Shown in pieces: positions 13,127 through 34,127 of a DNA stretch of 35,897 nt. The DNA comes from Planctomyces sp. GTDB taxonomy: Bacteria; Planctomycetota; Planctomycetia; Planctomycetales; Planctomycetaceae. Under the pieces are notes generated by a model. It was not told the origin of the DNA. It searched no databases and saw only the letters and a program-made list of their open reading frames with translations. The number at the start of each line of letters is the position of its first letter. Within the stretch, counting starts at the first letter, position 1. A program made the position numbers and the translations under genes. The stretch covers positions 1-35,897 of the forward strand of contig JAEUIH010000076.1 in NCBI GenBank assembly GCA_016795105.1, read 5' to 3'.

Positions 13127-13142
13127 TGTGAGCTGCCTCACA
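13127..13142. promoter_or_regulatory. CRP-type box, exact TGTGA-N6-TCACA
   Basis: The sequence TGTGAGCTGCCTCACA matches the consensus at all ten fixed positions. The palindrome extends to 8-bp arms (13125-13132 and 13137-13144). Its centre is about 167 bp upstream of the start of the Gly/Tyr-rich secreted protein. It is one of eight similar boxes in the window. Confidence 0.7.
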
Positions 13143-13223
13143 CATCAATGATGACAGGTGATGTCCAATTGAGGTCAGGTTAGGGCGCATTGCTGTGATC
13201 ACGACTCTTGAAGTGAAAGACGA

Positions 13224-14063
13224 TCAATTCTCGTCAGGACCGATGCCTGAACGCCGACCATTTTCTGGCAACGACTGGAAAGGAAGCATCAGCATTGATG
13301 TCAGTCGATCGGCTTGTTCTTCGCTGCGGATCTGCGGCAATCCGATTGTCATTTCTTCATGACCGTCAGCGGGCTGAGAGCGATACGTGCGGAACAATAT
13401 GTCCCACCACGGAAGGTTGAATCCAAAGTTGCTGTTCGTTTCTGCTCGATCCACCGAATGATGAACGCGATGCATGTCGGGAGTGACAACGAATCCTCTC
13501 AAAAATCGATCCAGTCCGACGGCAATCCTGACATTGCTGTGATTGAACATGGCCGTTGCGTTCAAAAGTACTTCGAACACAATAACGGCTTTCGCAGATG
13601 GTCCAAGCATCGCCACGATGAAGATCTTGATTGCCGCCGAAATCAGGATCTCCAAAGTGTGAAATCGCAGACCGGTTGTGACGTCAAAATCAAGGTCAGC
13701 GTGATGAACAAAGTGCAGTCGCCAGAGCACCGGTACGGCATGAAACAAGACATGCTGCCAATAGATTGCCAGGTCCAGAATCAACACTGCCAGAGTCAGC
13801 TCGCCCCACGGCGGCCAGGCCACTTGATGCAGCAATCCCCATCCCTGTTTCTCCGAAATCAATGCTGCCCCGACCGCAGTGATTGGGATCAGAATGCGGG
13901 ACAGAGCCATATTCAAAACAACAAGCCCAAGATTGCTGGCCCAGCGAGGCGCCTTCCGCACAGTCAGGGAACGACGTGGCGCAATCAATTCCCAGACTGT
14001 CATCAATAGCAGGACACCACCGAAAAACGACAAACGCACCACAACTTCGATTTGCTCAGGCAT
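13224..14063 (-). CDS. Fatty acid hydroxylase / sterol desaturase family membrane protein, 279 aa
   Basis: This is an integral membrane di-iron protein of the FA-hydroxylase superfamily (PF04116 type). The His clusters are H104-x3-H108, H117-x2-HH121, His135, N-H175 and H198-x2-HH202, the usual set for a di-iron site facing the cytoplasm. About four to five hydrophobic segments lie at residues 8-25, 45-70, 88-110 and 138-172. The substrate cannot be read from sequence; lipid hydroxylation or desaturation is the family role. The start is ATG 14061-14063. A TTG three codons earlier (14070-14072) is an alternative. The gene follows the peroxiredoxin-like gene by about ten bases, so the two are co-transcribed. 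Confidence 0.88.
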   Translation of the reverse strand: MPEQIEVVVRLSFFGGVLLLMTVWELIAPRRSLTVRKAPRWASNLGLVVLNMALSRILIPITAVGAALISEKQGWGLLHQVAWPPWGELTLAVLILDLAIYWQHVLFHAVPVLWRLHFVHHADLDFDVTTGLRFHTLEILISAAIKIFIVAMLGPSAKAVIVFEVLLNATAMFNHSNVRIAVGLDRFLRGFVVTPDMHRVHHSVDRAETNSNFGFNLPWWDILFRTYRSQPADGHEEMTIGLPQIRSEEQADRLTSMLMLPFQSLPENGRRSGIGPDEN

Positions 14064-14073
14064 CGAAGTCAAA

Positions 14074-14697
14074 TTACTTCACATTCATCAGCTCTTCTAC
14101 AATCGTCTTTGCATCCAGCCGCTGGCGATAGTCGGGATTGCTGTGAGCGAAGACGATCGTGCCGGTCTTGTCCACGATGTAGACGGCGGGAATGGGCAGA
14201 GCGTGGTGTGGCTGACCAGATGCCTTTTCGAGATCGATTCCGAATCCCTTGTACTTCGTTACGGTGGCGTCATCGACCTTGAATGCCAGGCCAAATGCCG
14301 TCGCCGCGCTGACATCCGCATCAGACAGGATTGGGAAGCCGATTTTGTTCTTTTCCACATTCGCTTGTGAGCTCTCGACAGAATCGGGACTGATGCCGAT
14401 CATCTCTGCACCAAGTTCCTCGATCTCCGGATAGGCCTTAATCAGTTCGGCTGTGTGGCGAGAACAAATCGGGCACCATCCACCACGAAAGAAGACCAGC
14501 ACCACCGGCTGTTTCTCGTGCAACGAAGCAAGCGAGACTTCATCGCCACTCGCGTTCTTCAGTCTCAATTCCGGAACTTTTCCCCCGACTTTCAGCGGCG
14601 CGGTTTTCTCCGGCGCGGCAGCGATTGGGTTTTCGTCAGCTGTGACCAGAGACGATGTGCCAAGAACGACAATTGCAAGAAACACTGTCCTAACCAC
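14074..14697 (-). CDS. Exported peroxiredoxin-like (AhpC/TSA, thioredoxin-fold) protein, 207 aa
   Basis: A signal peptide (residues 1-20, ending V-T-A before D-E-N) is followed by a redoxin domain. The block F-F-R-G-G-W-C-P-I-C gives Cys75 and Cys78, a C-x2-C arrangement in the position of the peroxidatic cysteine. Later motifs (G-I-S-P-D-S, F-P-I-L-S-D, P-A-V-Y-I-V-D-K-T-G) fit the AhpC/TSA family. Probable role: thiol-based peroxide reduction or thiol-disulfide exchange outside the cytoplasm. The start is set at GTG 14695-14697, with AGGGG seven bases upstream and a well-shaped signal peptide. ATG codons a few residues earlier are alternatives. The di-iron membrane protein gene follows immediately. 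Confidence 0.87.
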   Translation of the reverse strand: MVRTVFLAIVVLGTSSLVTADENPIAAAPEKTAPLKVGGKVPELRLKNASGDEVSLASLHEKQPVVLVFFRGGWCPICSRHTAELIKAYPEIEELGAEMIGISPDSVESSQANVEKNKIGFPILSDADVSAATAFGLAFKVDDATVTKYKGFGIDLEKASGQPHHALPIPAVYIVDKTGTIVFAHSNPDYRQRLDAKTIVEELMNVK

Positions 14698-14724
14698 TCT
14701 ATCGCCCCTAAACATAAAATGCAT

Positions 14725-14754
14725 GATATACCATCGGCTTGCTAAGCATTGCAA
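14725..14754 (-). promoter_or_regulatory. Candidate sigma-70-like promoter for the peroxiredoxin-like gene
   Basis: On the minus strand TTGCAA (14749-14754) is followed after 18 bases by TATATC (14725-14730). This is about 28 bases before the GTG start. It is a match by eye only, and planctomycete promoter consensus is poorly defined. Confidence 0.3.
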
Positions 14755-16087: not shown

Positions 16088-16092
16088 GATGG

Positions 16093-16708: not shown

Positions 16709-17896
16709 TCACTCGATCTCACCGGGGACCGGCGCGGGGATTTCGAGGTTCTGCGATAGGTCTTCTGGTGATGGGACGGACAGCAGCAGATCGGAATTCA
16801 GATGCTCGTTCGAAAACGGTATCGAATACGTGCCCGAATCTGGCGAAATTTCCGCACAAGTACATCCGTTGCTGGCCGAACGACTCCTGCTTCTGGTCAG
16901 TTTCTCTTTGAAAGGTTCAATCCTCGGAGACATTTTCGACCACATATTGTACGGGCCTGCGGCGAGGGCAATTCCAATTGTTGGGCATTGATCGTTGAGC
17001 GCCCAGTTGTAACCGAGATACTCAAATTTCCAGCCGGGGTGGCAGGACAACCATTGTCGGTCTTCAGCGGGAAGAAACGGAAACACGGTTTTGACGACAT
17101 CGTAATCGGTCTGGCCAAAGTCGTCGCGATACCATTTCAGAATCGGTGACATCTTCACAGTGCGAGTCAGCTTTGAGATGTGAAAGCGATTGCGATCCGA
17201 GAAGAAATCTCGGGCATTGTCCTCCAATTGGAAGTGAAGCTGTTCGGCCGTGTAAGCTCGATTCCGGAGACGCGGGCAACCTTTTGCAGCACAGACGAGG
17301 GCGAAGTGAATGCGGGGATCTCCGAGTGGGCGAAGGATGTCGTTTTCAATTCCGTTCAGCGACAGATACTGATCACCCGCCCAGAACTGAAGATCGTCAA
17401 AGATGGCGAACTGAGTCCATTTGCCGTCGATTTGCTGAATGCTGGCGACCGGGTATTCATGCAGTACGCCCCAGATCGTCAGTGCGTTGTAGGCGTTGAT
17501 GTAGAATGCCATCATGGCTTCATTGCTGGACGGAATCGAGGGATCGAATTTCGTCAGCGAATGAATGTAGGCCTGTAACCGGCTTTTGTCACAACAAGAA
17601 ACCTGCCATTGGCTGTAACAGACCAGGCCATCGTCGTCGACGTATCGTTGCAGCAGATTGTCGAAGGTTGTGTGGGAGATTTCGTCCAGACCGATCATGG
17701 GATCTGCAGCATCAACGACATTCGTCGGGCTGCCGAACCGCAACACCGTACCGGAAGATTCGCCTGCATCGGCGTGACTGCAACTTGTCAGCAGAGCCAT
17801 GGCAATACTGGCGAAGGCGAATGGCAGGAATAAAGTTCCCCACACGCCAGAAGGCTCGTCCCTTTCCGCTATGTGACGTGGCAGAACGGCGGTCAT
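16709..17896 (-). CDS. DUF547 lipoprotein, 395 aa (DUF547 copy 1)
   Basis: The DUF547 core is marked by F-Y-I-N-A-Y-N-A-L-T-I, by H-F-A-L-V-C-A-A-K-G-C-P and by L-G-Y-N-W-A-L-N at the end of the domain. The biochemical function of DUF547 is unknown. The N-terminus has a hydrophobic stretch followed by L-L-T-S-C, a good lipobox, so it is probably anchored in the envelope. After the domain there is an extra tail of about 85 residues, Ser/Arg-rich then Pro-rich, absent from the two other DUF547 proteins here. The start is ATG 17894-17896; GTG at 17941 is an alternative, and neither has a clear ribosome site. It is divergent from the flavoprotein/Fe-S operon, sharing an upstream region with two CRP-type boxes. 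Confidence 0.88.
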   Translation of the reverse strand: MTAVLPRHIAERDEPSGVWGTLFLPFAFASIAMALLTSCSHADAGESSGTVLRFGSPTNVVDAADPMIGLDEISHTTFDNLLQRYVDDDGLVCYSQWQVSCCDKSRLQAYIHSLTKFDPSIPSSNEAMMAFYINAYNALTIWGVLHEYPVASIQQIDGKWTQFAIFDDLQFWAGDQYLSLNGIENDILRPLGDPRIHFALVCAAKGCPRLRNRAYTAEQLHFQLEDNARDFFSDRNRFHISKLTRTVKMSPILKWYRDDFGQTDYDVVKTVFPFLPAEDRQWLSCHPGWKFEYLGYNWALNDQCPTIGIALAAGPYNMWSKMSPRIEPFKEKLTRSRSRSASNGCTCAEISPDSGTYSIPFSNEHLNSDLLLSVPSPEDLSQNLEIPAPVPGEIE

Positions 17897-18125
17897 TGTC
17901 AGGCGATAGACCGCGACACATCGATATTTGAGGTTATCCACCGGTATCTGCTTTCACAATTCGCGACTCAGCTTGCGCCCTGCCGCAACTTTGGAGAACT
18001 TTCAAATTCAGGATCGCGGGCCTTCAGGCGGAATCCGCCGCGCTGAATCCGTTGCCGCACAGCAAAGCAACAGCGATCAAAGCTTTCGATTAGTTTCAGG
18101 GATCGGCGAATCGCAATCGCGGCAC

Positions 18126-18141
18126 TGTGAAGCAACTCACA
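18126..18141. promoter_or_regulatory. CRP-type box, exact TGTGA-N6-TCACA
   Basis: TGTGAAGCAACTCACA matches all ten fixed positions. It is the distal of two boxes before the flavoprotein/Fe-S operon and the nearer one to the divergent DUF547 gene (centre about 190-240 bp from its possible starts). The 95-bp distance to the next box equals about nine helical turns, so two dimers could bind on the same face. Confidence 0.7.
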
Positions 18142-18220
18142 GAGGTCCGAATCCTGTATGACGATACAGACCTCAACGCTGGTCACGCGCTTTGGGCAGG
18201 ATGGGAGCGATCGCGGTGGA

Positions 18221-18236
18221 TGTGATTTGGCTCACA
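18221..18236. promoter_or_regulatory. CRP-type box, exact TGTGA-N6-TCACA
   Basis: TGTGATTTGGCTCACA matches all ten fixed positions. Its centre is about 125 bp upstream of the ATG of the 833-aa flavoprotein/Fe-S fusion. Compare GGTGATCTGGCTCACA at 31820-31835, which shares even part of the spacer. Confidence 0.72.
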
Positions 18237-18353
18237 GACAGTTTTCACCAGAGTTGTTATTGAGCTTTCCGAAAGCACATCCCTGAAACAGACGTTGGAA
18301 ATCGTGGAACGCAATGCTCCGCGACTCCAGTACGGACTCTCGAACAAATATCA

Positions 18354-20855
18354 ATGATGTCACACGAAAACGACACACAGGAACATGAGCGTGAATGCGG
18401 GAGCATGATGCTGACCTCGATGCCCGCCCAGGACCACTTGAATGATCCCGGTCCATCTCCGCCGGTAACGCAAAACAGCGACGAGCGATCGCATGCGTGG
18501 TACTTTTCTACCGTGCCCGCGCAGGAGATCGTGCCCATTGTCGACGATCGATTTCAATCGAGTATACGGGGTATCTATGTCATTGGCGACGTGACGGGAC
18601 TTCCTCTGGTCAAAGTTGCTGCGAATCAGGGCGTTCAGGTGATCGCCGCGATGCAGAAAGCTGGCGAGTTCTCACGGTCCGGGGATCTTGAAGGACTGGA
18701 TCTGGTCATTATCGGCGGTGGCCCGGCAGGAGTGTCGGCGGCCGCAGAAGCGGAGAAGCTGGGAATTCGATATGTGGTGCTCGAACGCAATCGATTGGCC
18801 AGCACCATTCGCAGCTTTCCGCCGGGTAAAATGGTGTATGCAGAGCCACAGTTCATCGCGAACGCCAGTCAGCTTGATGTCGATGAAGACGTCGATAAAG
18901 ATGAATTCCTGTCTCGAATTTCAGCCCTTGTGCAACAAAAGCAACTGAAGATTCAGGAAGGTGTGGACGTTAAGCATGTTCGCCAGGCGGGCGATCATGA
19001 GTTCGAAATTGTGACGGCCGCCGGAAAAACCATTCCTGCACGAACGGTTCTGGTTGCGATCGGACGTCAGGGACAGCCTCGTCTGCTGGAATGCCCCGGA
19101 GCAGACGAGGCTCACAAAGTCACCTATCGCCTGCATTCCCCCGCTGACTATCAGGGAAAGAATCTGCTGATTGTCGGCGGAGGTAACTCTGCCATTGAAG
19201 CGGCTCTGCTGCTGAAGGATCACAATCATGTCACAATGTCCTACCGTGGCGACAGCCTGTTTCGTGCTAAGGAGGAGAACCGCACATTGATTGCAGAGGC
19301 TGAGCAAGCGGGCTCAGTCACAATTCTGTATCAGAGTACAGTCAAACGCATTGATGACGCTGAAGTCGAGATCGACGTCGCTGGTAGACGGCGTCGAATT
19401 GCTAATGATCATGTCATCGTGCAGATCGGAACGCTTCCTCCCATTCCATTTCTGATGGACATGGGACTGGAACTGGACGGCATCTGGACCGTTCGTCGCC
19501 TGCTGATGTCGATGGTTGGTCTGGTTGTGGGATTTCTGATCTACTTTCAGGCGAAGCATTTTGTGCTGCTGCCTGAGAAATCCGGAACAGGAAAGTTGCT
19601 GGTGCCAATGGCCGGCATCCTGCAACCATTCTGGTCTTCGACGCTGAGGAACGCCCTGACCGACGCCATCCTTCCATTGCTCTGCAGTGCTCTGCTTGCC
19701 ATGTGGTTAATCAATCGTCAGCAGGTGCTTCGGGGACGGCAACGGCTCATACCGATTCCCGCCATTGGTAGCTGGCTTGGTGTCTGCAGTGCGGTGTATG
19801 CCGCGACGTTAATGATGCCGAACGTATTGACGCTGAATCCCGCCGAAGCTGGACCGGGTCCCTACTACGTGCCGGGCTTTGCGTGGCTGTTTCGAGTGAT
19901 CTCGCCGTACTTTGCAAACGTTTATGGCTTCTACTATCTCGCCTATTTCGTTGCCATCACTGGCTTTGGATTGTATTGGGCGAAAAAGTCGGGGCATCCT
20001 CTGATCTGGCGTCGGAATCTTACCTTCATTGCGACGCAGTGGACGCTGTGGTGGGGGATTCCGACGTTTCTGGCTATGACACTGGGACGTAACGCGTGGA
20101 CACCGGTGGCGTCAAAACTCATCAATGCCTGGCCTCTGAACATGACGGCATTTCGAGTCGACCCGGTTGTGAACAACGGTGATCCGGAGTGGTGGTCGGT
20201 CGTTGCGGTGGCTGGAGTCGTCTGGGCCGTCTTCCTGACATTTGTGATTATTCCGCTGTTCACGATTCGCTGGGGAAAGATCTACTGTTCGTACATCTGT
20301 TCGTGCGGAGCCCTCGCGGAAACGGTCGGCAATGGTTATCGGCATCGAGGTCCCAAAGGCGACGCGCCTCGACGCTTGGAGCGTTTCGGTTTCGTCTTTA
20401 TCGCTCTGGCCTCGGTGGCAACCGTGGCTGATCTGCTGGGCATTGCCGGACCGTTTGAATGGTACAACGTCTATGTCGGTACAGCATTGGCCGGAGCTGT
20501 GGCCATTGGTTTGTACCCTTTCCTGGGACAGCGAATCTGGTGTCGCATGTGGTGCCCGCTCGCCTTCTGGATGAATTTCTGGGGCCGCTGGTCCAAATTC
20601 AAGATCAGCGCGGTGAAAGGCAAGTGCATCGATTGCAATGTCTGCAATCAGTACTGCCAGATGGGCATCGACATCAAATCGCGAGCGATGCAGGGGCTTC
20701 CAGTGACGCTGGATACGACTCCCTGTGTTGGCTGCGCAGAGTGTGTCGTGCGATGCCCGATGAATGTTCTGCATCTGGGTGAACTGCCTGCTTCACCTTC
20801 GAAGCCTTCTCTTCTCCCCATCTTGTCAGACCTGTCTGTTGGAACCAGGCCATGA
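18354..20855 (+). CDS. Flavoprotein fused to NapH/CcoG-type membrane 4Fe-4S protein, 833 aa
   Basis: Residues 1-110 include G-I-Y-V-I-G-D-V-T-G-L-P (73-84), a motif that normally ends thioredoxin-reductase-like flavoproteins. Residues 116-125 are the FAD Rossmann motif (V-I-I-G-G-G-P-A-G), with L-E-R-N and F-P-P-G-K-M-V-Y after it, resembling YpdA-type reductases. Residues 272-281 (I-V-G-G-G-N-S-A) are the NAD(P) motif. The flavoprotein part lacks the closing GD motif at its own C-terminus and passes directly into membrane helices (about 384-400, 430-452, 470-490 and further ones to 725). Y-C-S-Y-I-C-S-C-G (644-652) and W-C-R-M-W-C-P (729-735) are typical of NapH/CcoG-like proteins. Two 4Fe-4S motifs close the protein: C758-x2-C761-x2-C764-x3-C768 and C791-x2-C794-x2-C797-x3-C801-P. 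It probably moves electrons from NAD(P)H across or into the membrane. The acceptor is unknown. The stop overlaps the next start (ATGA). Confidence 0.9.
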   Translation: MMSHENDTQEHERECGSMMLTSMPAQDHLNDPGPSPPVTQNSDERSHAWYFSTVPAQEIVPIVDDRFQSSIRGIYVIGDVTGLPLVKVAANQGVQVIAAMQKAGEFSRSGDLEGLDLVIIGGGPAGVSAAAEAEKLGIRYVVLERNRLASTIRSFPPGKMVYAEPQFIANASQLDVDEDVDKDEFLSRISALVQQKQLKIQEGVDVKHVRQAGDHEFEIVTAAGKTIPARTVLVAIGRQGQPRLLECPGADEAHKVTYRLHSPADYQGKNLLIVGGGNSAIEAALLLKDHNHVTMSYRGDSLFRAKEENRTLIAEAEQAGSVTILYQSTVKRIDDAEVEIDVAGRRRRIANDHVIVQIGTLPPIPFLMDMGLELDGIWTVRRLLMSMVGLVVGFLIYFQAKHFVLLPEKSGTGKLLVPMAGILQPFWSSTLRNALTDAILPLLCSALLAMWLINRQQVLRGRQRLIPIPAIGSWLGVCSAVYAATLMMPNVLTLNPAEAGPGPYYVPGFAWLFRVISPYFANVYGFYYLAYFVAITGFGLYWAKKSGHPLIWRRNLTFIATQWTLWWGIPTFLAMTLGRNAWTPVASKLINAWPLNMTAFRVDPVVNNGDPEWWSVVAVAGVVWAVFLTFVIIPLFTIRWGKIYCSYICSCGALAETVGNGYRHRGPKGDAPRRLERFGFVFIALASVATVADLLGIAGPFEWYNVYVGTALAGAVAIGLYPFLGQRIWCRMWCPLAFWMNFWGRWSKFKISAVKGKCIDCNVCNQYCQMGIDIKSRAMQGLPVTLDTTPCVGCAECVVRCPMNVLHLGELPASPSKPSLLPILSDLSVGTRP

Positions 20856-24741: not shown

Positions 24742-24829
24742 TTCCAGAAATGCATAACATTCAGAGAACCGCATTCAAGTCTATTAGAAGATTCAGATTG
24801 CACTGGCACAGGCTTAGAGAGACTTACGT

Positions 24830-25297: not shown

Positions 25298-25680
25298 CTC
25301 TTTGATCGCTGACGTTCCGCTGACTGCACCGATTCCTTCATTTTGCGTACGAGTTCGCCACAATGCGGGCATTCTGCCAAATGCAGTTGAATTCTGGTCG
25401 TTAGTTCGGGCGGCGTAGAGCCTGCCAGCATGTCTGGAAGGGACTTTCGAACTTCGGTGCAACTGATTCCTCCACACTGAAGGTCCGGAGTGTCAGATGC
25501 TGTCGAGCCTGGAAAAACCAGGACTGCCGTGCAGACCAGAATCAACATTGCCACAGTCGCGGCCGCAGCCGTTTTCAGCTGACGAATTCGTTGTTGAGCA
25601 TTAAGACGTTTCGCGAGAGTTGAGAATGTGCCGGGAGGGCAGGAGTCCCATCCGTCCGGAGAAGAATTTCGTTGTGGCAT
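25252..25680 (-). CDS. Membrane protein with C-terminal zf-HC2 motif, 142 aa (copy 1)
   Basis: The N-terminal part carries D-G-W-D-S-C-P-P-G-T-F and a basic helix (L-A-K-R-L-N-A-Q-Q-R-I-R-Q-L-K), then a transmembrane helix at about 37-57. After it comes C74-x25-H100-x3-C104-x2-C107, the spacing of zf-HC2 anti-sigma zinc fingers. In normal anti-sigma factors this motif comes before the helix, in the cytoplasm. Here the basic N-side predicts that the motif lies outside. ATG at 25678-25680 is chosen; the longer frame starts with TTG. It is a paralogue of the protein at 31218-31643. The Crp-family gene precedes it by 77 bases on the same strand, so it may be co-transcribed with it. Confidence 0.78.
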   Translation of the reverse strand: MPQRNSSPDGWDSCPPGTFSTLAKRLNAQQRIRQLKTAAAATVAMLILVCTAVLVFPGSTASDTPDLQCGGISCTEVRKSLPDMLAGSTPPELTTRIQLHLAECPHCGELVRKMKESVQSAERQRSKSQASRSNTLISVRSF

Positions 25681-25757
25681 ATGGTCACCATGAGGAGTCG
25701 GACGAGAGCCGACTAAATCGTTTGATTGACGAGTCTTCAAAAGTTGGAACGTGCGGT

Positions 25758-26501
25758 TTACCAAGACGGAGCCACTTGCGGCGCTGGTGAGATGGTATGT
25801 CGAGACTGGCAGGTTTTCTCTCCAGCCGCGAGAGCCAGTTGATCCGGTCGGAGGACGACGATTCTCTGCCGCCCGACAGTAATCAGCCGCTCAAGCTGCA
25901 ATTCTCCCAGTGTGAGAGTGACAGATTCTCTTGTGATACCGATCAATCCTGCAATTTCCTGATGTGAGAGTTTGATATCGATTAAGAAACCCTCTGCAAG
26001 TTGTCGACCGTATAGCTCCAGCAGTTCGCAAAGTAACCCTACAAGACGTTCACGATTCGACCGAAACAACAGATTTCTGAGTCGTCGTTCGAGTCGTTTT
26101 CTGCGGAAGCCCACGAATTTGGTGATTCCCAGGGAAACATCGGGGTTTCTGAGGAGCATGGTTTCGAGAGCATCTCTTGGTAAAGAGACAACTTTTGATG
26201 TGCCGACGGCCTGAGCATGTTCTTCACGTTCTTCGGAACCGAGAATTGCTAACTCACCGAATAGTTCACCGGGTTCGATAATCGCCAGAATCGCCTGTTT
26301 CCCATCGGGTGTAATGGAATACAACCGAATTCTTCCTTCGGCAAGAACATAAACAGACTCCGCTGAGTCGCCGGGGAAGTAGATTGACGAGTTACCAGGG
26401 AAAACACGAACGCGAGCTCGTGCTTCAAGCAATTCCAGGTCGGTTGGCGAAAGTTGTTCAAAGAGTCGGCACTTTTTAATGCACCAGATACGTTCAGTCA
26501 T
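25758..26501 (-). CDS. Crp/Fnr-family transcriptional regulator, 247 aa
   Basis: The N-terminal cyclic-nucleotide-binding-type beta barrel covers about residues 14-125 (V-Y-V-L-A-E-G-R-I-R-L-Y, P-G-E-L-F-G-E-L-A-I-L). The C-terminal winged helix is at about 150-225 with L-S-H-Q-E-I-A-G-L-I-G-I-T-R-E-S-V-T. Arg191-Glu192 correspond to Arg180-Glu181 of E. coli CRP, which read the GTGA half-site; the third contact (Arg185 in CRP) is not conserved (Leu196 here). The N-terminus has only C-x3-C (Cys7, Cys11), so it is not a standard FNR Fe-S sensor. The start ATG 26499-26501 follows GGCGGA. The eight TGTGA-N6-TCACA-like boxes in this window are its likely targets. The effector is unknown; no Arg in the phosphate-binding position of the barrel could be assigned with confidence. 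Confidence 0.92.
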   Translation of the reverse strand: MTERIWCIKKCRLFEQLSPTDLELLEARARVRVFPGNSSIYFPGDSAESVYVLAEGRIRLYSITPDGKQAILAIIEPGELFGELAILGSEEREEHAQAVGTSKVVSLPRDALETMLLRNPDVSLGITKFVGFRRKRLERRLRNLLFRSNRERLVGLLCELLELYGRQLAEGFLIDIKLSHQEIAGLIGITRESVTLTLGELQLERLITVGRQRIVVLRPDQLALAAGEKTCQSRHTISPAPQVAPSW

Positions 26502-26654: not shown

Positions 26655-27710
26655 TTATAATGCTGAAGCTGGATAGATTTGTGTACTTGGATGGAACGCC
26701 GACCAGGCAAACCAGAAAGAGTACATCCATTGAAGACCTGGGTCTGCTTCGGTGACCAGCATACTTTGCGACTCCGGCAAGAATCTCACTGCGAATTTCA
26801 TTCCATCAAGTTCCGCCTGAATTGTGGTTTCCGACGTCATTCCCGCAAATAATGTTTCTGGAATAGCGATCCGTGATTTGGAAGTCCAGGCCCCGATGAC
26901 TTTGGTACGCGGCGGGAGCCGATCGTCTTTATGATTGACGGAAAACATCAGTTCCGATGATTCAAAATATCTTCGATAGGGTGATTGAGAATAGTCTCTA
27001 TTGAAGCCGGTATCGAGTGACTGAAGCTCCGTATCAGGGTGCTGATTCCTCCATTCTTTCCAGCTTGTCAGGCTTACTGGCAGCGTCCTGAGAGGGACTT
27101 TATCTGTTTTTCCGGATACGCCTGTTGCCATCAGTTGTGACCAGAGGTTTTCCGATTCGCCCCCTCGGTCATACATCAGGACATTGCTGTTGAATAGAAG
27201 TCCGGAAACCCCGAACTCGCGAGTTCCATCGGGAGTTCTTCTGTCGAAGACGGAGACCGAGTCGCAGAGGGGGCAATACGTTATCGCGATAGGAACACCA
27301 TTGATTTCATCATTGATGATCTCATGGTAGTTCAGTACACGAATTGGGTATGCGCGTGCCTTTGACTCCACGACCACACCAATGACTCGATCATTTGGTT
27401 TCATGAAATCACCGCTGCCTGCTGGAACAAACTTTGGATTCGAGATCGCCGGGATTCCATCTTTTTTTGGCCCACCACGGAGAATCTGGTCTGCGGGGAT
27501 GGAAGTGATGGAAAGATCGAAATCCTTACCATTTCTGACTTGAGGCTGGGCAAGCGCCTGAGCTGAGAATTCCAGCGTCTTGTCAATTTCAGGTGAATTG
27601 TCGCCGCGAAACCAGAGCCCGATCAGTACAACCGCCAGGACCAGTGTTAATGCAAGAAAACTCGTTCGAGTAACCTGAGTCAGATCTATCAGGTTTTTCT
27701 TTCCGGACAT
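26655..27710 (-). CDS. DUF3179 membrane-anchored protein, 351 aa (copy 1)
   Basis: The start ATG 27708-27710 has AGGAG seven bases ahead, which rejects a longer frame to 27815. An N-terminal transmembrane segment (about residues 16-33) precedes the DUF3179 domain. Marks are V-I-G-V-V-V-x-S-K-A-R-A-Y-P-I-R-V-L-N-Y-H-E-I-I-N-D, then P-I-A-I-T-Y-C-P-L-C-D-S-V-S-V-F-D-R-R, and G-V-S-G-L-L-F-N-S-N-V-L-M-Y-D-R. The C-x2-C pair might bind metal or be redox active; the domain's function is not known. It follows the DUF1207 gene by 169 bases on the same strand, probably sharing its promoter. Confidence 0.88.
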   Translation of the reverse strand: MSGKKNLIDLTQVTRTSFLALTLVLAVVLIGLWFRGDNSPEIDKTLEFSAQALAQPQVRNGKDFDLSITSIPADQILRGGPKKDGIPAISNPKFVPAGSGDFMKPNDRVIGVVVESKARAYPIRVLNYHEIINDEINGVPIAITYCPLCDSVSVFDRRTPDGTREFGVSGLLFNSNVLMYDRGGESENLWSQLMATGVSGKTDKVPLRTLPVSLTSWKEWRNQHPDTELQSLDTGFNRDYSQSPYRRYFESSELMFSVNHKDDRLPPRTKVIGAWTSKSRIAIPETLFAGMTSETTIQAELDGMKFAVRFLPESQSMLVTEADPGLQWMYSFWFAWSAFHPSTQIYPASAL

Positions 27711-27879
27711 GGCGATTCTCCTGGCGGGTGTCGACCACAGCAATGAACATGTGCACGAAATAACGCTGATGGGCAGCCTACATGTGAAGATCTCATGGTG
27801 TCTGTTAGATGACACACAGAAGCTGTCAGAGAAATTGTTGACTCTCGTCTTCGCAAGCGTACTTTCCGACGATGCTGTT

Positions 27880-28788
27880 TCAGAAGTCGTACCAAAGCCC
27901 GACTCCGATTAGTTGTTCATTCCTGTCATGAAATTCAAACTGACTCGTATGGCCGTCCGAGTACTGCAGCCCAAGTCGACATAAGTGGTTATTTTGGTCA
28001 GATCGCCATGACCAGCCGAGCATCGTAGTGAATGTCCCGCCGAAATCGACTTCCTCTCGAAGCAGAGCGTTTACGGCAACAAATGGAGCCCCCTGAAGTC
28101 CTGTTGGCTGTTCAGGAGCGTAGTCAAATCCAAATTGAAGCCACCAGGGTTCGGTACCCCCATCATTGATAAAACCATAGTCAGCTTCAGCGTAGATTCG
28201 CCAATCCGGTGTGACAAAGTGGCCGACGCCCAACACAAGTGAATTACGGCTGAAGTTGATGCGTTCAAACAACGGATTGCGAACGAGGAATTCGTCACCA
28301 GCGTGCGAGCTTAAATGGTAGAAGGCGAGTTTTGCCTGCCAGTCGTCCTGTCGCCATGTCAGCGGAACTCCGAATCGGAAATCCGCGGCATCGACGTCTG
28401 CGTTCTGGTCGGCATTCAGCCTTGGAAAGGCGGCACCCTCAATATCTATTTGCCAACCTTCAGGGCGAAAGACATCCGCTGTGCCCAACCTGAGAATGCC
28501 AACTCGCCCACCAAGTGTTGTATCCCACACATCATCACCACTCGAACTGGAAAGCACGGCTGTTCCAATTCGACTTTCCCGAGGGCCTGCAAGGTAGGAT
28601 GAATAGAGTAATCCATCGGGCATATGCTGAAGCCTGATCCCGCTGTGAGTGTCTGAATTCTCGAAAGAGGTCACCAGGGACTCAATCGAAGTCGGAATAT
28701 GGTTAAGAGTCTGGGCGCAGCATTGTGGCCGGAACGCACAAAGAAAGATCCAGGCAAACCATGTTGAGCATCGCAGAAATCTGAACAT
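27880..28788 (-). CDS. DUF1207-like outer-membrane protein, 302 aa
   Basis: A signal peptide (about residues 1-25, ending C-C-A-Q) is followed by many short amphipathic strands (L-G-V-G-H-F-V-T-P-D-W-R-I-Y-A-E-A-D-Y-G) and ends in aromatic W-Y-D-F, typical of outer-membrane beta barrels. The blocks P-D-G-L-L-Y-S-S-Y-L-A-G, W-D-T-T-L-G-G-R-V-G, G-W-Q-I-D-I-E-G-A-A-F-P-R-L, F-R-F-G-V-P-L-T and Y-H-L-S-S-H-A-G-D-E-F are characteristic of DUF1207. The role is unknown. A CRP-type box lies 80 bp upstream (28860-28875). The DUF3179 gene follows. Confidence 0.82.
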   Translation of the reverse strand: MFRFLRCSTWFAWIFLCAFRPQCCAQTLNHIPTSIESLVTSFENSDTHSGIRLQHMPDGLLYSSYLAGPRESRIGTAVLSSSSGDDVWDTTLGGRVGILRLGTADVFRPEGWQIDIEGAAFPRLNADQNADVDAADFRFGVPLTWRQDDWQAKLAFYHLSSHAGDEFLVRNPLFERINFSRNSLVLGVGHFVTPDWRIYAEADYGFINDGGTEPWWLQFGFDYAPEQPTGLQGAPFVAVNALLREEVDFGGTFTTMLGWSWRSDQNNHLCRLGLQYSDGHTSQFEFHDRNEQLIGVGLWYDF

Positions 28789-28859
28789 TGCTGACTCACT
28801 CGGTGAAATGGTCTTGAGTGCTGGAAGTTTTCAGTATCGACGAATCAGGGATGTGAAAC

Positions 28860-28875
28860 TGTGATCCTGCACACA
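28860..28875. promoter_or_regulatory. CRP-type box, 9 of 10
   Basis: TGTGATCCTGCACACA differs from the consensus only at the first base of the second half-site. Its centre is about 80 bp upstream of the DUF1207 start (28788) on the minus strand. A second box serving the divergent gene lies 63 bp away. Confidence 0.6.
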
Positions 28876-28922: not shown

Positions 28923-28938
28923 TGTGAGTCAGCTCACG
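28923..28938. promoter_or_regulatory. CRP-type box, 9 of 10
   Basis: TGTGAGTCAGCTCACG differs from the consensus only in the last base. The centre is about 88 bp upstream of the exported thioredoxin-like gene (29019). Confidence 0.65.
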
Positions 28939-29018
28939 GATCGGTAATCGGTGAGATTCCGATACTCATTCAACGGAAGCAGCATCATTCACAATGATCC
29001 AGCTGCTGTAGGGAAACC

Positions 29019-29489
29019 ATGAAGAGTATTCGGAGGATTTTACTGATGCATCGCCTGCCGCTGGTATTGTCCGGAGTGATGTTTGCTTGTCTGTCAACTG
29101 CTCTGCCTGAAGAACCGGAACAGGGTGTGCAGTGGATCGTATCGCCGAAAGATGCTATGCATGCTGTGGAAGTACAACAGCGACCGATGCTGATTTACTT
29201 GACAGGTGAACAATGTGTCTGGTGTCGAAAGCTGGAACGATCAACACTGTCTGATGAGTCCATAACAGCAACCATCCAACAAAGATTTGTTCCGCTTAAG
29301 GTCGATGGTGCAAAGCATGCGGACTTGATGAAGAATCTGCAGGTTCGAGGCCTTCCGGCGATGCTTGTAGTTGCACCAGATGGAAGTGTCTTGCACCGAA
29401 TCGTCGGCTATGTTGAACCGGACGAGCTCAGCGAGGCTCTGAACTCCTCACTGCTCAGGCACAAAGCCTCGAAGCCTCGCCTGAAATGA
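29019..29489 (+). CDS. Exported thioredoxin-like protein, 156 aa
   Basis: A hydrophobic N-terminus (about residues 13-29) acts as signal peptide. The redox site is G-E-Q-C-V-W-C-R-K-L-E (Cys66, Cys69). The cis-proline loop is present as R-G-L-P-A-M-L-V-V, followed by A-P-D-G. This is the DUF255/DsbD-gamma-like or thioredoxin_7 type (Y-L-T-G-E-x-C-x-W-C). It probably handles thiol-disulfide exchange in the periplasm. It has a CRP-type box about 88 bp upstream and is divergent from the DUF1207 gene. It converges with the small lipoprotein gene at 29512, 22 bases away. Confidence 0.9.
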   Translation: MKSIRRILLMHRLPLVLSGVMFACLSTALPEEPEQGVQWIVSPKDAMHAVEVQQRPMLIYLTGEQCVWCRKLERSTLSDESITATIQQRFVPLKVDGAKHADLMKNLQVRGLPAMLVVAPDGSVLHRIVGYVEPDELSEALNSSLLRHKASKPRLK

Positions 29490-29511: not shown

Positions 29512-29691
29512 TTACCGGGATCCGGAACCATCCTCTGCGGGTGTGGTCCCGGAACCGGCATCTGTCGGCTCATTAGATGTCGGTTCTTCGCCGGAAGTGC
29601 TGACCTGACTGGTACAGCCAGTAATACTGAGGACGACCATCAGCAGAATTGCTGCAAGATAGAATCCATTGGAACATTTGCATCGGCACAT
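29512..29691 (-). CDS. Small lipoprotein, 59 aa
   Basis: The start ATG 29689-29691 has GGAG upstream (GGAGTCACTCGATG). Residues 1-24 form a lipoprotein signal with lipobox S-I-T-G-C at Cys25. The remaining 34 residues are Ser/Thr/Glu/Gly-rich, without structure or motif. Short lipoproteins of this type are common in planctomycetes and have no known function. A CRP-type box lies about 104 bp upstream (29787-29802). Confidence 0.72.
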   Translation of the reverse strand: MCRCKCSNGFYLAAILLMVVLSITGCTSQVSTSGEEPTSNEPTDAGSGTTPAEDGSGSR

Positions 29692-29786
29692 CGAGTGACT
29701 CCAGGTACGTTGATCTTGAAACAGTGGGAAAGGTAGATTCTTAAGGTCGTGACGCACGAAGCGTACGGCAATCATTTTTTAGGCTC

Positions 29787-29802
29787 TGTGATTCAGCACA
29801 CA
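29787..29802. promoter_or_regulatory. CRP-type box, 9 of 10
   Basis: TGTGATTCAGCACACA differs from the consensus only at the first base of the second half-site, the same change as at 28860-28875. It lies between csrA and the small lipoprotein gene, centre about 104 bp before the latter. Confidence 0.58.
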
Positions 29803-30150: not shown

Positions 30151-31176
30151 TCATTTGTTAGCCGGTGTTGCAAGTGGCCATTCAAGACTGCGTGGGTAGA
30201 ATGCTTTCCAGTTGCGAGTCAGTGCAATTGCCCCGGAATGCTGTTGAAGCTGTTTTCCTTTGAGAGGACCGGACAGGGCGAGACCCGTGTAAGCGTCCCA
30301 TTCAGAATTTGTTTCGCTGTCAGTCATCAGGAGTGACACCGCTTCTTCAGATGAAGGCTGTACAGCGAATGTCAAAGTGTCACCATCGACCGTTCTGTCA
30401 AACAATCGGATAGAGAACGTTGAATGATCGAATGAGGCCAGTAGTTGGCTGCCATCCAGATCAACATTGATCAGAGGCGTATCCAGAAATGATTCAATCC
30501 TGATATGTCGAGGATGGTCTAAAACGAAACCAAATACGTAAGCTCGAGGTTCTTCGTAGAATGACCGAACAAATCGGTCGTTGCTTCGAGACAAATTCAG
30601 GACAGTAGTTTCTGGGTGAAGTGACTTCCATTTCCCCCAGGTGGTCAGATCGGCGGGCAGAGACGTCAGCCGACGCCCTTTCATCTCGCGAGTCATGCCT
30701 TTCTCAAGTAAGAGGCTCCAAAGGGACCTGGTTTCACTGTCGTACATGACAAGCGTACGATTCCAGAGCATTCCGGAGACCTGAAATGTGAGTGCACGAT
30801 CGTCGATCCTGCGGTCAAACATAATTGCACTGTGACACAAATGACACCACATGGCCGCAACTGGCACTCCGCCAAGTGTATCATTAATGATTTCGCGTTT
30901 TGGACCATGGAGCATATTGATTGGGTACGCTCTTGATTCACCGTTCACGACGACTCCAAGCACTAGTTCGTCGTCTGTGACCTGATCCGTGACTTCCGAC
31001 CGCTGCAGAACCGGCGGGGTAACGATGGCTGGTTGCCTCGGAAGGACGTGAATCGGGGCGAACTTAGGCTCTTTGTCCTGTGGTTCGCCAGCGGTGTCTG
31101 TCTGCGAAACTAGCGCTGGCAGCTGGAATTGGGAGAGAAAACATACGGATAACAGTAGATTCAGTGCGGTCATCAT
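30151..31176 (-). CDS. DUF3179 exported protein, 341 aa (copy 2)
   Basis: A signal peptide (about residues 1-22) leads to a DUF3179 domain: L-V-L-G-V-V-V-N-G-E-S-R-A-Y-P-I-N-M-L, R-E-I-I-N-D-T-L-G-G-V-P-V-A-A-M-W-C-H-L-C-H-S-A-I-M-F-D-R-R and F-Q-V-S-G-M-L-W-N-R-T-L-V-M-Y-D. The Cys pair is conserved as C-H-L-C with flanking His, where copy 1 has C-P-L-C-D. Two ATGs stand at the start (31174-31176 and 31171-31173). It lies 41 bases after the zf-HC2 membrane protein gene and is probably co-transcribed with it. Confidence 0.87.
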   Translation of the reverse strand: MMTALNLLLSVCFLSQFQLPALVSQTDTAGEPQDKEPKFAPIHVLPRQPAIVTPPVLQRSEVTDQVTDDELVLGVVVNGESRAYPINMLHGPKREIINDTLGGVPVAAMWCHLCHSAIMFDRRIDDRALTFQVSGMLWNRTLVMYDSETRSLWSLLLEKGMTREMKGRRLTSLPADLTTWGKWKSLHPETTVLNLSRSNDRFVRSFYEEPRAYVFGFVLDHPRHIRIESFLDTPLINVDLDGSQLLASFDHSTFSIRLFDRTVDGDTLTFAVQPSSEEAVSLLMTDSETNSEWDAYTGLALSGPLKGKQLQQHSGAIALTRNWKAFYPRSLEWPLATPANK

Positions 31177-31217: not shown

Positions 31218-31643
31218 TCAGCGATCGGTGTCAGCCAGCATCGTTGCGATCGAAATGCGTTCGTCATTCGTGGTTGGACGACTTGCTGCATACGATTCCT
31301 GCTGAATCCTCCGAGCTAATTCCGCACAGCGGGGGCATGCTGAAAGATGTAATCGAATTTTGGAGACTAGCTTGTGATTTGCTTTGTCGCTCAACATCAG
31401 AGGCAGAGAATCTCGCACTTCCATACAGGAAATACCACCATGAGGATAGTCGTCAGGCAAAACGTGACTCTGACTCGGGTACCATGAACCAGCCGTCAAA
31501 ATCAGGAGAAGCGTGGCTGTGATACCAGCAATACGCTGCACCGCCTGACGTTGTTGGGACTTCCTAAGCCCTGTACTGAGTTGAATGAGCGTGCCGGAAG
31601 GGCAAGGCCGCCACCCATCATTTGAATTCTGAATTTGCTGCAT
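31218..31643 (-). CDS. Membrane protein with C-terminal zf-HC2 motif, 141 aa (copy 2)
   Basis: It has the same plan as the protein at 25252-25680: N-terminal D-G-W-R-P-C-P-S-G-T-L, a basic segment, a transmembrane helix at about 38-54, then C73-x25-H99-x3-C103-x2-C106. The spacing of the zinc ligands is identical in the two copies. The start ATG 31641-31643 aligns with that of the paralogue; a longer frame to 31727 has no counterpart. It is followed by a DUF3179 gene, while the other copy stands next to the Crp-family gene. No ECF sigma factor is near, so it may not be an anti-sigma factor at all. Confidence 0.78.
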   Translation of the reverse strand: MQQIQNSNDGWRPCPSGTLIQLSTGLRKSQQRQAVQRIAGITATLLLILTAGSWYPSQSHVLPDDYPHGGISCMEVRDSLPLMLSDKANHKLVSKIRLHLSACPRCAELARRIQQESYAASRPTTNDERISIATMLADTDR

Positions 31644-31819
31644 GGTTTCACCATCATTGATGCTGCGAGAAGAGTCGCCAGAGTCAAACAGTGTGCATCT
31701 TGCAGTGACTGCGAGCATCCCGCTCATTCCGCGATATTATCGTGACTGAAAGCCGACGCCGTCTGTGAGAAATCGAACAGAGAAGAATGAATTCCAATGA
31801 ACTTCAGGTCAGGAGAATT

Positions 31820-31835
31820 GGTGATCTGGCTCACA
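31820..31835. promoter_or_regulatory. CRP-type box, 9 of 10
   Basis: GGTGATCTGGCTCACA differs from the consensus only in the first base. The centre is about 81 bp before the Gly-rich lipoprotein gene (31909) and about 184 bp before the divergent zf-HC2 gene. Confidence 0.62.
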
Positions 31836-31908
31836 GACTCGGATTCCATTCCGGCTTAAACTGCCCCCGGATTGAACGTTTTCCCCGAGTTTCTTTGGAG
31901 AACTGGTC

Positions 31909-32169
31909 ATGGATCGACCACAGAAGACAAACAAAATGCTGCTTGGAATGATTTTTCTGCTGAGTACATTTGTGGGCTGTGCCTACCACAATATGCATGG
32001 TGGAGGCAGTTGTGCTGCTCCGAATGGATATGCGGGAGCGTCGGGCGGTTACCAGACTGCACCTGGTTCAGCCGGTTATCCTCAGGGTAGCCCAGCACCC
32101 TATGGACAACCCTCGTATGGGCAGGCTCCCCCGCCTGGATCAGGGTTCTTCGGTTCAGGAGGTTACTAG
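31909..32169 (+). CDS. Small Gly/Pro/Tyr-rich lipoprotein, 86 aa
   Basis: The signal sequence ends in F-V-G-C at Cys24, an acceptable lipobox. The mature part has H-N-M-H-G-G-G-S-C and then low-complexity G-Y, P-Y-G-Q and G-S-G repeats, similar in flavour to the Gly/Tyr-rich secreted protein at 12551-12967. It is probably surface or periplasmic; function unknown. The stop is followed one base later by the GTG start of the glycosyltransferase gene, and the AGGAGG serving that start lies within this gene's last codons. Confidence 0.82.
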   Translation: MDRPQKTNKMLLGMIFLLSTFVGCAYHNMHGGGSCAAPNGYAGASGGYQTAPGSAGYPQGSPAPYGQPSYGQAPPPGSGFFGSGGY

Positions 32170-32170
32170 G

Positions 32171-34069
32171 GTGACTCGAGCTCGTTCTGCTGAAGTTCAG
32201 TTCCGGGCTAGCGCTGGAGTATCATTGAATCCCGCTTGCAATTCGTTTGTCACACCGCAACTCTGTGGAGTGATGCTGTGGACGGGGTGGGTCGTTCTGA
32301 CGCTCATCAGTGGTTCGTTTGCTTATGGGGTGCCGGCTCTCTCTCGCCCGGTATTCACTGTGACACTGCTCCTGATCATTCTTTCGACGATCCACCTGTT
32401 AGCTGTCTGGCTTGTTCGAAATTCGTCTGACAAATCGATCACTCTGTTTTCAGTGATCAGTCTGGCTTTGGCGATGAGATTTGTCACGATCTTTTCGACA
32501 CCGATTCAGGAACTGGATTACTATCGCTATATGTGGGATGGCGAAACGGTGCTGGCCGGAGAAAATCCGTTCCGCGTGGTCCCTGCACAGATCGTTGCGG
32601 CAGCGTCAACACAGTTGACAGACTCGGACGTTCTTATTGAGAACTCGCTCGTGGAAATCTGCAGGCAAAGACCTCGTGTCTATGAAACAGCTGCAAGAGT
32701 CCATTACGGAGAGCTCCCGACGATCTATCCGCCAGTCAGCCTGGCAGTGTTTGCAATTGCAGCAGCAACCACGCCGGAGTCAGCCAGCCTTGAAACAGCA
32801 ACCGTAATTCTTCGGATGTTTATTGTGTCTTTTGATGTTGGGATTATCTTCTGGATGATCCGTTTGCTGAAACATCTTGGATGGTCTCCGCAGTTAGTCA
32901 TTTCCTGGGCCTGGTGTCCCCTGGTCGTCAAGGAGTTTGCTAACAGTGGACATCTTGACGCCATCGCAGTTTTTTTTATGGTTGGGAGTATCACGCTGCT
33001 GGTGATTCATCTCTTCCCCGCATGCAAATCCGTTGTTCGCCGTCGAAAGGTACGGAATCTGTGGGGCATAACGATGAGTGCTGGATTGTTCGGTCTCGCC
33101 GTAGGAGCAAAGCTGTTTCCCGTTGTGCTCGTACCCGTCATTGCGGGAGTCGTGCTGCGTCGATCCGGACTTCGCCAGTGTTTTATCTGGATCTGTGTTG
33201 CCGGTATCACTGGAGTCGTGTGTTGCTTACCAATGCTCCTGGCCGGTAGCGAAGAATCAAAAGCCGGAGTCCTGGCAGAGTCCCATGATGGAGCATTGGT
33301 CATCGATCCGCTGAACAATATTCCAACAACTTATCAGCATGAGGAACCGCCGGTTCCAGGCAAAGTTGCGATGAATGAGGGCGACCTGTCTGAAGAAAGC
33401 TTCAGCACGCCTAACAATGCGTCTCCCTACAATATGCCGCCGCGAAGCAGTTTAAAGGTATTCCTGACATCGTGGAAAATGAACGACCTGATCTTTATGA
33501 TCATTGAAGGAAATCTGACGCCGGAGCAGAGTCAATTTCAGCAGAAAGATCAATGGTTTGTGCTGGTTCCGAAAACTGTGAGAGATTCAATCACGGAAAT
33601 GATCAGAACAAGGTTCCGTGTTTCCTCGGAGACTGTGCCGTTTTTGCTCACACGGTGCATTCTTTCAATTGCATTTCTTGCTGTCGCGATTCGACTCGCA
33701 TGGGCGGGGATGAAGTGTACTGAGTCCGCAGACTGGCTGGCTCTGGTGTTTTCAACGCTTGCATGGTTCTGGGTTTTATCCCCCACGCTGAATCCCTGGT
33801 ACTGGAGCTGGGCCCTGCCGTTTATACTGTTCGCAAGACATCGCGTCTGGGAAGCTCTGTCTGTGATTGTTTTCGTCTACTATCTGCGATTCTGGTTTGC
33901 ATACCAGTGGGACAGCCGGTCTGTTCTATGGACGAGATATCAGGGAGAGAGCTTTTTTCATTATGTTGTTGTGTGGTTTGAACATCTGCCGTGGATGCTC
34001 CTCTTGGCATTTCAGGCAATGAAGAAGAGGTTTAGAGCCTCGTCTCGTACAGTTTCTCCGATTCAGTGA
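32171..34069 (+). CDS. Polytopic GT-C-type membrane glycosyltransferase, 632 aa
   Basis: The start is GTG 32171-32173 with AGGAGG eight bases before it. The frame stays open back to 31970, but that part overlaps the lipoprotein gene in another frame and is rejected. About ten or more transmembrane segments are visible. Early in the protein I see E-L-D-Y-Y-R-Y-M-W-D-G-E-T-V-L-A-G-E-N-P-F, a block usual in polyprenyl-phosphate-dependent mannosyl/hexosyltransferases (GT87/DUF2029-like), followed later by T-I-Y-P-P-V and L-N-P-W-Y-W-S-W. Such enzymes move a sugar from a lipid carrier to a target outside the membrane. A large polar insertion at about residues 370-460 divides the helices. The acceptor is unknown; the coupled lipoprotein is a possibility. 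Confidence 0.85.
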   Translation: MTRARSAEVQFRASAGVSLNPACNSFVTPQLCGVMLWTGWVVLTLISGSFAYGVPALSRPVFTVTLLLIILSTIHLLAVWLVRNSSDKSITLFSVISLALAMRFVTIFSTPIQELDYYRYMWDGETVLAGENPFRVVPAQIVAAASTQLTDSDVLIENSLVEICRQRPRVYETAARVHYGELPTIYPPVSLAVFAIAAATTPESASLETATVILRMFIVSFDVGIIFWMIRLLKHLGWSPQLVISWAWCPLVVKEFANSGHLDAIAVFFMVGSITLLVIHLFPACKSVVRRRKVRNLWGITMSAGLFGLAVGAKLFPVVLVPVIAGVVLRRSGLRQCFIWICVAGITGVVCCLPMLLAGSEESKAGVLAESHDGALVIDPLNNIPTTYQHEEPPVPGKVAMNEGDLSEESFSTPNNASPYNMPPRSSLKVFLTSWKMNDLIFMIIEGNLTPEQSQFQQKDQWFVLVPKTVRDSITEMIRTRFRVSSETVPFLLTRCILSIAFLAVAIRLAWAGMKCTESADWLALVFSTLAWFWVLSPTLNPWYWSWALPFILFARHRVWEALSVIVFVYYLRFWFAYQWDSRSVLWTRYQGESFFHYVVVWFEHLPWMLLLAFQAMKKRFRASSRTVSPIQ

Positions 34070-34111
34070 CTAAACCTGAATTGCGGGTGAGATTTAGAAA
34101 TTGTCACTGAA

Positions 34112-34127
34112 TGTGTGCCGTATCACA
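34112..34127. promoter_or_regulatory. CRP-type box, 9 of 10
   Basis: TGTGTGCCGTATCACA differs from the consensus at one base of the first half-site. The centre is about 135 bp before the start of the third DUF547 gene. Confidence 0.55.

Follow-up and report, generated by a model that had tools for sequence, protein, structure and literature searches.

Composite CRP-type promoters and their probable Crp-family regulator on a planctomycete contig

The contig of Planctomyces sp. analysed here carries a gene for a Crp-family protein (25758-26501, reverse strand; Crp in the following) and a series of palindromic boxes of the form TGTGA-N6-TCACA. This raises the question whether these boxes are the operators of that protein and, if so, how it would act on them and what it would control. 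The stretch (the window) is the whole of contig C365, 35,897 nucleotides long, from a host genome of 8,907,889 bases in 391 contigs that is 99.96% complete; operon limits and gene starts were inferred from open reading frames (ORFs). A first-pass annotation had listed eight such boxes as a Crp-controlled regulon, and all eight were recovered at their positions, three of them exact and five with one mismatch. We consider it highly probable that the boxes are operators of Crp, and that at most of them Crp acts as a class II activator centred at -41.5 beside a -10 element.

Boxes and their second element

Places that match TGTGA-N6-TCACA with at most one mismatch (near-exact boxes) number ten in the window; dinucleotide shuffles predict 1.85, and none of 100 shuffles reached ten. 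The whole genome contains 22 exact boxes versus 5 for the pattern read backwards, and 317 near-exact boxes versus 152. From the genome densities, 0.09 exact and 1.3 near-exact boxes are expected per window, and three and ten were found (Poisson p about 1e-4 and 1e-6). Two boxes had been omitted from the earlier list, an intergenic one at 24718, TGTGAGCCTGCTTACA, and one at 30831 within the coding sequence of a DUF3179 gene (30151-31176), which is probably there by chance. The statement that all eight listed boxes are intergenic is correct if short gene starts are chosen; with the longest ORF (12551-13141), the box at 13127 overlaps the first codons.

A second contig of the host, C389, of which the first 20 kb were examined (as L016), carries exact boxes at 4636, 4744 and 17253 and four boxes with one mismatch. 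Thirteen other 20-kb stretches of the same genome (260 kb) contain no exact box and six boxes with at most one mismatch. The density of boxes in coding regions had been proposed as a check on the regulon: the six exact boxes of C365 and C389 precede genes, two of them overlapping the first codons of a longest-possible ORF, and 15 of the 16 exact boxes outside these contigs fall within called ORFs. The exact boxes elsewhere are thus mostly due to chance, and the working regulon is therefore concentrated here and not spread over the genome.

The outer bases of the boxes are asymmetric, with TCACAGA on the promoter side. Alignment of 34 sites chosen by the box alone (at least 10 of the 12 bases of TGTGA-N6-TCACAGA, at most 150 bases downstream of crp) revealed CGATA(A/C)T as a second element at a distance of 36 bases from the start of the box. 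If the last six bases of this element are set as -12 to -7, the box centre lies at -41.5, which is the position of the activator at class II Crp promoters. Of 28 non-redundant sites, 23 have CGATAMT (at least 5 of 7 bases) at offset 36, where shuffles predict 0.6, and four have it one base further. The converse selection, made on TCACAGA plus CGATAMT, gave 23 non-redundant sites, and 21 of them have TGTRA (at most one mismatch) where the dyad requires it; in the same 23 sites TGTRA was never found one base to either side, and only twice at each of the positions two bases to either side. Dyad and -10 element support each other, since each is recovered when the selection is made on the other part.

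The composite promoter was found downstream of crp in other species as well. Among the best 80 of 467 loci with the nearest Crp relatives (79 planctomycete and one Proteobacteria by title), 38 contain the composite downstream of crp at up to three mismatches, where sites from close relatives are not independent of each other; the reversed pattern gave none in the 80 loci, and none was found in 71 regions 3 kb away. The minimum number of mismatches was 4 for the reversed pattern and 5 in the far regions. Box and element are separated by 18 bases in 32 of the 38 loci and by 19 in six. Near-exact boxes taken by themselves are 20.8 times denser from -20 to +250 relative to the crp stop than in the remainder of the 80 loci (23 in 21,410 bp versus 54 in 1,044,148 bp), and 23 loci have one at this place.

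The composite also occurs together with the regulator. We sorted 59 whole genomes, including the host, by the presence of a Crp homologue at E 1e-20 or better, which gave 25 genomes with Crp and 34 without. At up to two mismatches, 19 of the 25 contain the composite, at 35 places in total, compared with three genomes of the 34, at 3 places (p 2e-7); the reversed pattern yields two places. The association persists when sites directly downstream of crp are excluded (16 of 25 versus 3 of 34; p 1e-5) and within the host's own family (16 of 20 versus 2 of 17). A search through 347 genomes of the class, allowing one mismatch, found the composite at 54 places, distributed over 38 genomes, and the reversed pattern nowhere.

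For scoring we used a matrix trained solely on the regions around crp and the zinc-finger gene of other species (38 sites, 21 non-redundant). The own background of this matrix, 260 kb of host DNA, reaches a top score of 14.8, and ten matches at eight distinct boxes of the window lie above it: 34112, 18126 (both directions), 31764-31779, 28860 (both directions), 28923, 24718, 31820 and 29787. On C389 the boxes at 4744, 6133 and 17253 exceed it. The three top-scoring composite places of the whole genome are all in the window; on this ground, and with exact boxes beyond C365 and C389 mostly located in ORFs, a genome-wide Crp regulon was rejected. On contig C45 (L275), a box without second element, TGTGAGCCTGCACACAGA at 1626, lies upstream of a secreted protein read as P460-like. 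A second background of 255,000 bp, made of the outer 2.5 kb of the longer loci from relatives, gave scores of 24.8, 22.1, 18.5, 17.9, 16.4 and 15.3. Of its nine matches above 14.5, six lie upstream of homologues of genes from the window or from C389, namely one of DUF547, three of the glycosyltransferase, one of the C389 oxidoreductase and one ECF-type sigma gene; this background is therefore not clean and contains further targets.

The Crp-family protein and its membrane partner

The Crp protein has 247 amino acids and contains a cNMP_binding domain (PF00027, 77.6 bits) and an HTH_Crp_2 domain (PF13545, 54.2 bits), which place it in the CRP/FNR superfamily. It alone among the host's proteins exceeds the HTH_Crp_2 cut-off, with two more matches below it. 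An R-E pair had been noticed in its recognition helix, HQEIAGLIGITRESVTLTL, and rightly so: T190-R191-E192 is invariant in all 22 aligned sequences (the own protein and 21 of 24 homologues, 44-58% identity). In CRP these TRE positions read GTGA, and Arg-Glu in the helix together with TGTGA-N6-TCACA sites corresponds to CRP-type DNA recognition. The nearest solved relatives by sequence are NtcA (E 1.3e-29), the CRP of Mycobacterium tuberculosis (about 1.5e-23) and E. coli CRP (from 3e-15).

Compared with the class II CRP promoters of E. coli, the system shares the TGTGA-N6-TCACA site at -41.5, the R-E helix and the cNMP-type N-terminal domain. It differs in the outer asymmetry of TCACAGA, in the TGTAA allowed in the left half and in the -10 element CGATA(A/C)T, and further in the Glu that replaces the Ser/Thr of the cAMP site, in a regulon of stress and envelope genes, and in the zinc-finger partner. 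The PDB entries 3d0s and 3mzh, which we take to be chains of M. tuberculosis CRP, have RE at the same helix positions and an identical domain order, whereas the R-T pair in the cNMP pocket of 3d0s, which belongs to the cAMP phosphate cassette, aligns with R92-E93 of Crp. R92 is kept in 90% or more of the aligned homologues. Crp thus lacks the Arg-Ser/Thr cassette of CRP proper, and it reaches 70 bits against the 266 of the NCBIfam CRP equivalog cut-off. Because the Ser/Thr for cAMP is replaced, Crp should not be read as a cAMP receptor, judging from its aligned residues.

NtcA of cyanobacteria is the closest solved relative and offers a lead to the effector. R133 and E138 of Crp align with Arg128 and Glu133 of NtcA and are both invariant in the 22 sequences; in a second alignment of 28 rows (two rows omitted, one trimmed) E138 is invariant and R133 is present in 90% or more. 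According to PMC6243067, Arg128 and Glu133 of NtcA are 2-oxoglutarate residues that move upon activation, and PMC3898017 has NtcA activating from about -41.5. By residue position, the effector of Crp may be sought in this direction, as a lead only. Crp is not NtcA itself: the box is TGTGA-N6-TCACA and not GTA-N8-TAC, the helix has TRE where NtcA has TRV, and the score for the NtcA equivalog, 95 bits, is far below the cut-off of 245.

The gene that often follows the box downstream of crp encodes a small zinc-finger membrane protein with the layout WxxCPxG, an Arg-rich part, a transmembrane segment (TM) and C...HxxxCxxC. A motif filter for it was passed by an ORF in 45 of the 80 crp loci; the motif residues are kept in these proteins by construction, because the loci were chosen with the filter. 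Among 47 partner proteins (from the 45 loci plus two copies of the host), hydropathy indicates a TM in 42, in the alignment ahead of the finger, and Lys plus Arg are more numerous before the TM than after it in 44. By the positive-inside charges, the zinc finger is probably located outside the cytoplasm.

The host has two copies. zf1 (25252-25764, reverse strand) overlaps the crp stop and matches zf-HC2 (PF13490). zf2 (31218-31727, reverse strand; start more likely near 31643) has its own promoter, gave no Pfam match in one search and a weak RsrA match in another. The partner resembles RsrA and other zinc anti-sigma factors in its HxxxCxxC finger, present in zf1 and zf2 and in the relatives part of the selection, in the zf-HC2 match of zf1 and in weak matches to the RsrA model below the cut-off. 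In cytoplasmic zinc anti-sigma factors the finger is cytoplasmic and N-terminal of the TM; in zf1 and zf2 it follows the TM and is, by predicted topology, extracytoplasmic, and the conserved neighbour is a Crp-family gene and not a sigma factor.

Promoters of the window, of C389 and of relatives

The best composite of the window is located at 34112-34154 on the forward strand, with a box at 34112-34127 and CGATAAT at 34148-34154 (score 34.4), before DUF547 copy c (34249-35148, forward) and a VTT gene at 35323. The box at 18126-18141 serves two directions. Read forward, with CGATACA at 18162-18168 (18126-18168; score 28.4), it precedes a flavoprotein gene (18354-20855, forward; its product fuses a pyridine-nucleotide oxidoreductase with a NapH-like membrane 4Fe-4S part), DUF547 copy b (20852-21754, forward) and 21796-22641. 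Read leftwards on the reverse strand, with CGATCCC at 18099-18105 (18099-18141; score 20.5), it precedes DUF547 copy a (16709-17941, reverse).

On the reverse strand, the box at 31764-31779 (TGTTCGATTTCTCACA), with CGATAAT at 31736-31742 and a spacing of 19 (31736-31779; score 27.3), precedes zf2 and the DUF3179 gene 30151-31176. This box is weaker than the listed ones and had been overlooked. Another reverse-strand composite (28833-28875; box 28860-28875, CGATACT 28833-28839; score 25.0) stands before a possible operon of DUF1207 (27880-28788), DUF3179 (26655-27815), crp and zf1, which are all co-directional and separated by 64 and then 153 bases, the last two genes overlapping. Since the box at 28860 precedes this apparent operon, Crp could activate its own gene. 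In the opposite direction, the box at 28923-28938 with CGATACT at 28960-28966 and a spacing of 19 (28923-28966, forward; score 24.0) precedes a thioredoxin-like gene (29019-29489, forward).

Three further boxes score above background next to poorer second elements: 24718-24733 with ATAACAT (24718-24760, forward; score 19.1) before a membrane protein gene (24830-25297), 31820-31835 with TTAAACT (31820-31862, forward; score 16.5) before a lipoprotein ORF (31909-32169) and ORF 31970-34069, and 29787-29802 with GTACGCT (29760-29802, reverse; score 15.6) before a lipoprotein ORF (29512-29775). ORF 31970-34069, earlier called a glycosyltransferase, gave no Pfam match. The exact boxes at 18221-18236 (forward; second element absent at the expected spacing; composite score 9.2) and at 13127-13142 (before ORF 12551-13141 for the secreted protein rich in Gly/Tyr; second element likewise absent; best composite score 12.8) remain below background. 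Outside the finding, the window contains a single very long ORF at 4519-11817 (2432 amino acids).

Conservation before orthologues had been named as a requirement for the regulon, and it was observed for the zinc-finger, DUF547, DUF1207, 24830-25297 and ArsM-like genes and for the glycosyltransferase gene of C389. We inspected 25 of the 54 class places (L300-L324), counting as homologue any BLAST match at E 1e-3 or better to window or C389 proteins. Such a homologue follows in 24: the zinc-finger gene in 18, DUF547 in three, the homologue of 24830-25297 in one (L301), and a small ORF followed by the C389 glycosyltransferase homologue in two. The remaining place precedes a Tyr-rich secreted protein with no BLAST match to window or C389 proteins. 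In the relatives that have Crp, 23 of 32 composite places precede genes for the zinc-finger protein (13), DUF547 (5), DsbD-like proteins (3), DUF1207 (1) and an ArsM-like protein (1), the last 61% identical to the C389 ArsM-like gene product. Pfam confirms the DsbD domains in G006, G007 and G020 and DUF1207 in G018, so that the DUF1207 homologue there likewise has a composite site. Upstream of DUF547 homologues, the composite (at most three mismatches, spacing 17-19) is present in 9 of 15 loci from genomes with Crp, including two of the host, and in none of 4 from genomes without. Near 5328 of L268 (G007), a composite promoter precedes a short ORF read as a broken-off DUF547 start; tblastn of the window proteins gave no match.

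On C389, boxes at 4636, 4744 and 6133 accompany the genes of 4636-8624, a glycosyltransferase, a methyltransferase resembling ArsM (below the ArsM cut-offs) and an ArsS radical SAM gene (475 bits, cut-off 300), which look like an arsenosugar-type pathway. Directly behind the exact box, at 17253-19917, a Cys-rich precursor, an MNIO enzyme (PF05114) and a DUF2063 protein form a bufferin-like operon. It shares these three components with bufferin operons (PMC12452194); it differs in that a Crp-type box precedes it and the genome is planctomycete-like, and in a precursor that is only weakly BufA2-like (22 bits, cut-off 60). C389 also has an ECF-type sigma gene (13962-14647) that has a near-exact box, and in L210 (917) a homologue follows a composite site of high score; the regulon could thereby extend to a sigma factor.

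Competing explanations and meaning

Several observations weigh against the view that Crp activates from these sites. The exact boxes 13127 and 18221 have no second element and score below background as composites, and the boxes 24718, 31820 and 29787 exceed the background mainly through the box, their second elements scoring below zero. At two mismatches the composite is missing from six of the 25 genomes with Crp, one of them G001 from the host's genus, and at three mismatches from 42 of the 80 crp loci. One genus (g53; Gimesia by identical sites) supplies many of the class matches, so that these are not all independent. A homologue of genes from the window or C389 is missing behind three of the nine matches in the second background, and also behind nine of the 32 places in relatives with Crp (L257, L259, L262, L263, L264, L268, L271, L272 and L273), which are still counted in the tallies of the 59 genomes; among these nine are a histidine-specific methyltransferase (PF10017, EgtD type), with a site overlapping an upstream ORF, and a glutathione peroxidase (PF00255) with a weak site. 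The DUF547 contrast taken alone is not significant (p 0.09). The third arginine of the E. coli CRP helix, presumably R185, is not retained in Crp. As 13127 and 18221 lack the element present at 34112, 28860, 28923 and 18126, a perfect palindrome was rejected as the best indicator of a functional site. The earlier idea of a Crp regulon is supported; it missed zf2 as a target, and its term Crp carries no meaning of a cAMP receptor.

Chance palindromes in a biased composition would agree with the exact boxes elsewhere in the genome, most of which (15 of 16) lie in ORFs, but are refuted by the density in the window, the position, the second element and the conservation across genera, and we regard them as practically out of the question. 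A pure sigma-factor promoter, with TCACAGA as -35, CGATAAT as -10, no Crp site and the zinc-finger protein as the anti-sigma factor of an ECF sigma factor, would explain the anti-sigma-like HxxxCxxC finger with its weak, sub-cut-off RsrA matches, the sigma-like spacing of 18, the better conservation of TCACAGA compared with the left half, and the boxes before both the ECF-type gene on C389 (14051) and its L210 homologue. A sigma factor, however, needs no TGTRA, which is retained at the dyad offset in 21 of 23 sites selected without it; in addition, the conserved neighbour of the zinc-finger gene is crp, and the finger lies behind the TM, outside the cytoplasm by the positive-inside charges. 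This explanation was rejected in its pure form and appears improbable to us.

Rex, whose box TTGTGAA-N4-TTCACAA also has the TGTGA-N6-TCACA frame, would fit the half sites and their spacing, and in G040:C1, G049:C51 and G057:C3, which belong to another family, the crp homologue has a rex-type gene no more than about 1 kb away. The boxes do not have AA..TT as their inner bases, though, and the Rex DNA-binding domain PF06971 was found neither in the own genome nor in the 36 further genomes of the family that were searched (19 of the 59 have one), so that, barring a rex gene in the small portion absent from the host assembly, Rex was rejected for the host and its family and is very unlikely to own the boxes. 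Somewhat less remote, and still unlikely, is that Crp mainly represses, or that the exact boxes without -10 element, 18221 and 13127, are repressor or roadblock sites; 18221 would lie downstream of the start predicted from the 18126 promoter. The fixed place at -41.5 in 38 of 80 loci is, in contrast, the class II activator position. From the helix and the position of the boxes, we infer that Crp binds them and activates rather than represses: it would bind TGTRA-N6-TCACAGA, centred 41.5 bases before the transcription start beside the -10 element CGATA(A/C)T, and would thereby recruit RNA polymerase.

The regulon of Crp would comprise, in the window, the two zinc-finger partners, DUF547, DUF1207, DUF3179, thioredoxin-like, flavoprotein/Fe-S and lipoprotein genes, and on C389 the glycosyltransferase, the ArsM/ArsS arsenic pathway and the bufferin-like metallophore operon. 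The stress that is sensed we likewise infer: envelope protection against thiol-reactive stress (oxidants, arsenic, copper) is the most likely output, because the products include a thioredoxin-like protein, a flavoprotein with a NapH-like Fe-S part, DsbD in relatives, ArsS, an ArsM-like enzyme and bufferin-like proteins, which suggest envelope thiol-redox and metal defence. Paper searches on planctomycete regulation, Gimesia Crp, Crp-family regulons and arsenosugar genes, judged by titles, turned up no such regulon, and the papers retrieved for DUF547 are, by title, all on eukaryotes.

Regulator, promoter grammar and targets can here be read from the sequence, and promoters can be predicted down to the transcription start. 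The regulon provides a functional setting for the unnamed families DUF547, DUF1207 and DUF3179 and ties them to thiol, arsenic and copper stress. As a tentative extension, which we consider possible and not yet probable, Crp and the zinc-finger protein might form a lineage-wide transmembrane stress sensor of planctomycetes, in which the outer Cys/His cluster senses thiol or metal stress and, by way of the cytoplasmic WxxCPxG tail, adjusts an NtcA-like Crp activator that acts on the class II promoters of DUF547, thiol-redox, arsenic and copper-peptide genes. The membrane protein would then be a possible sensor partner of a Crp-family activator, which would be unusual.

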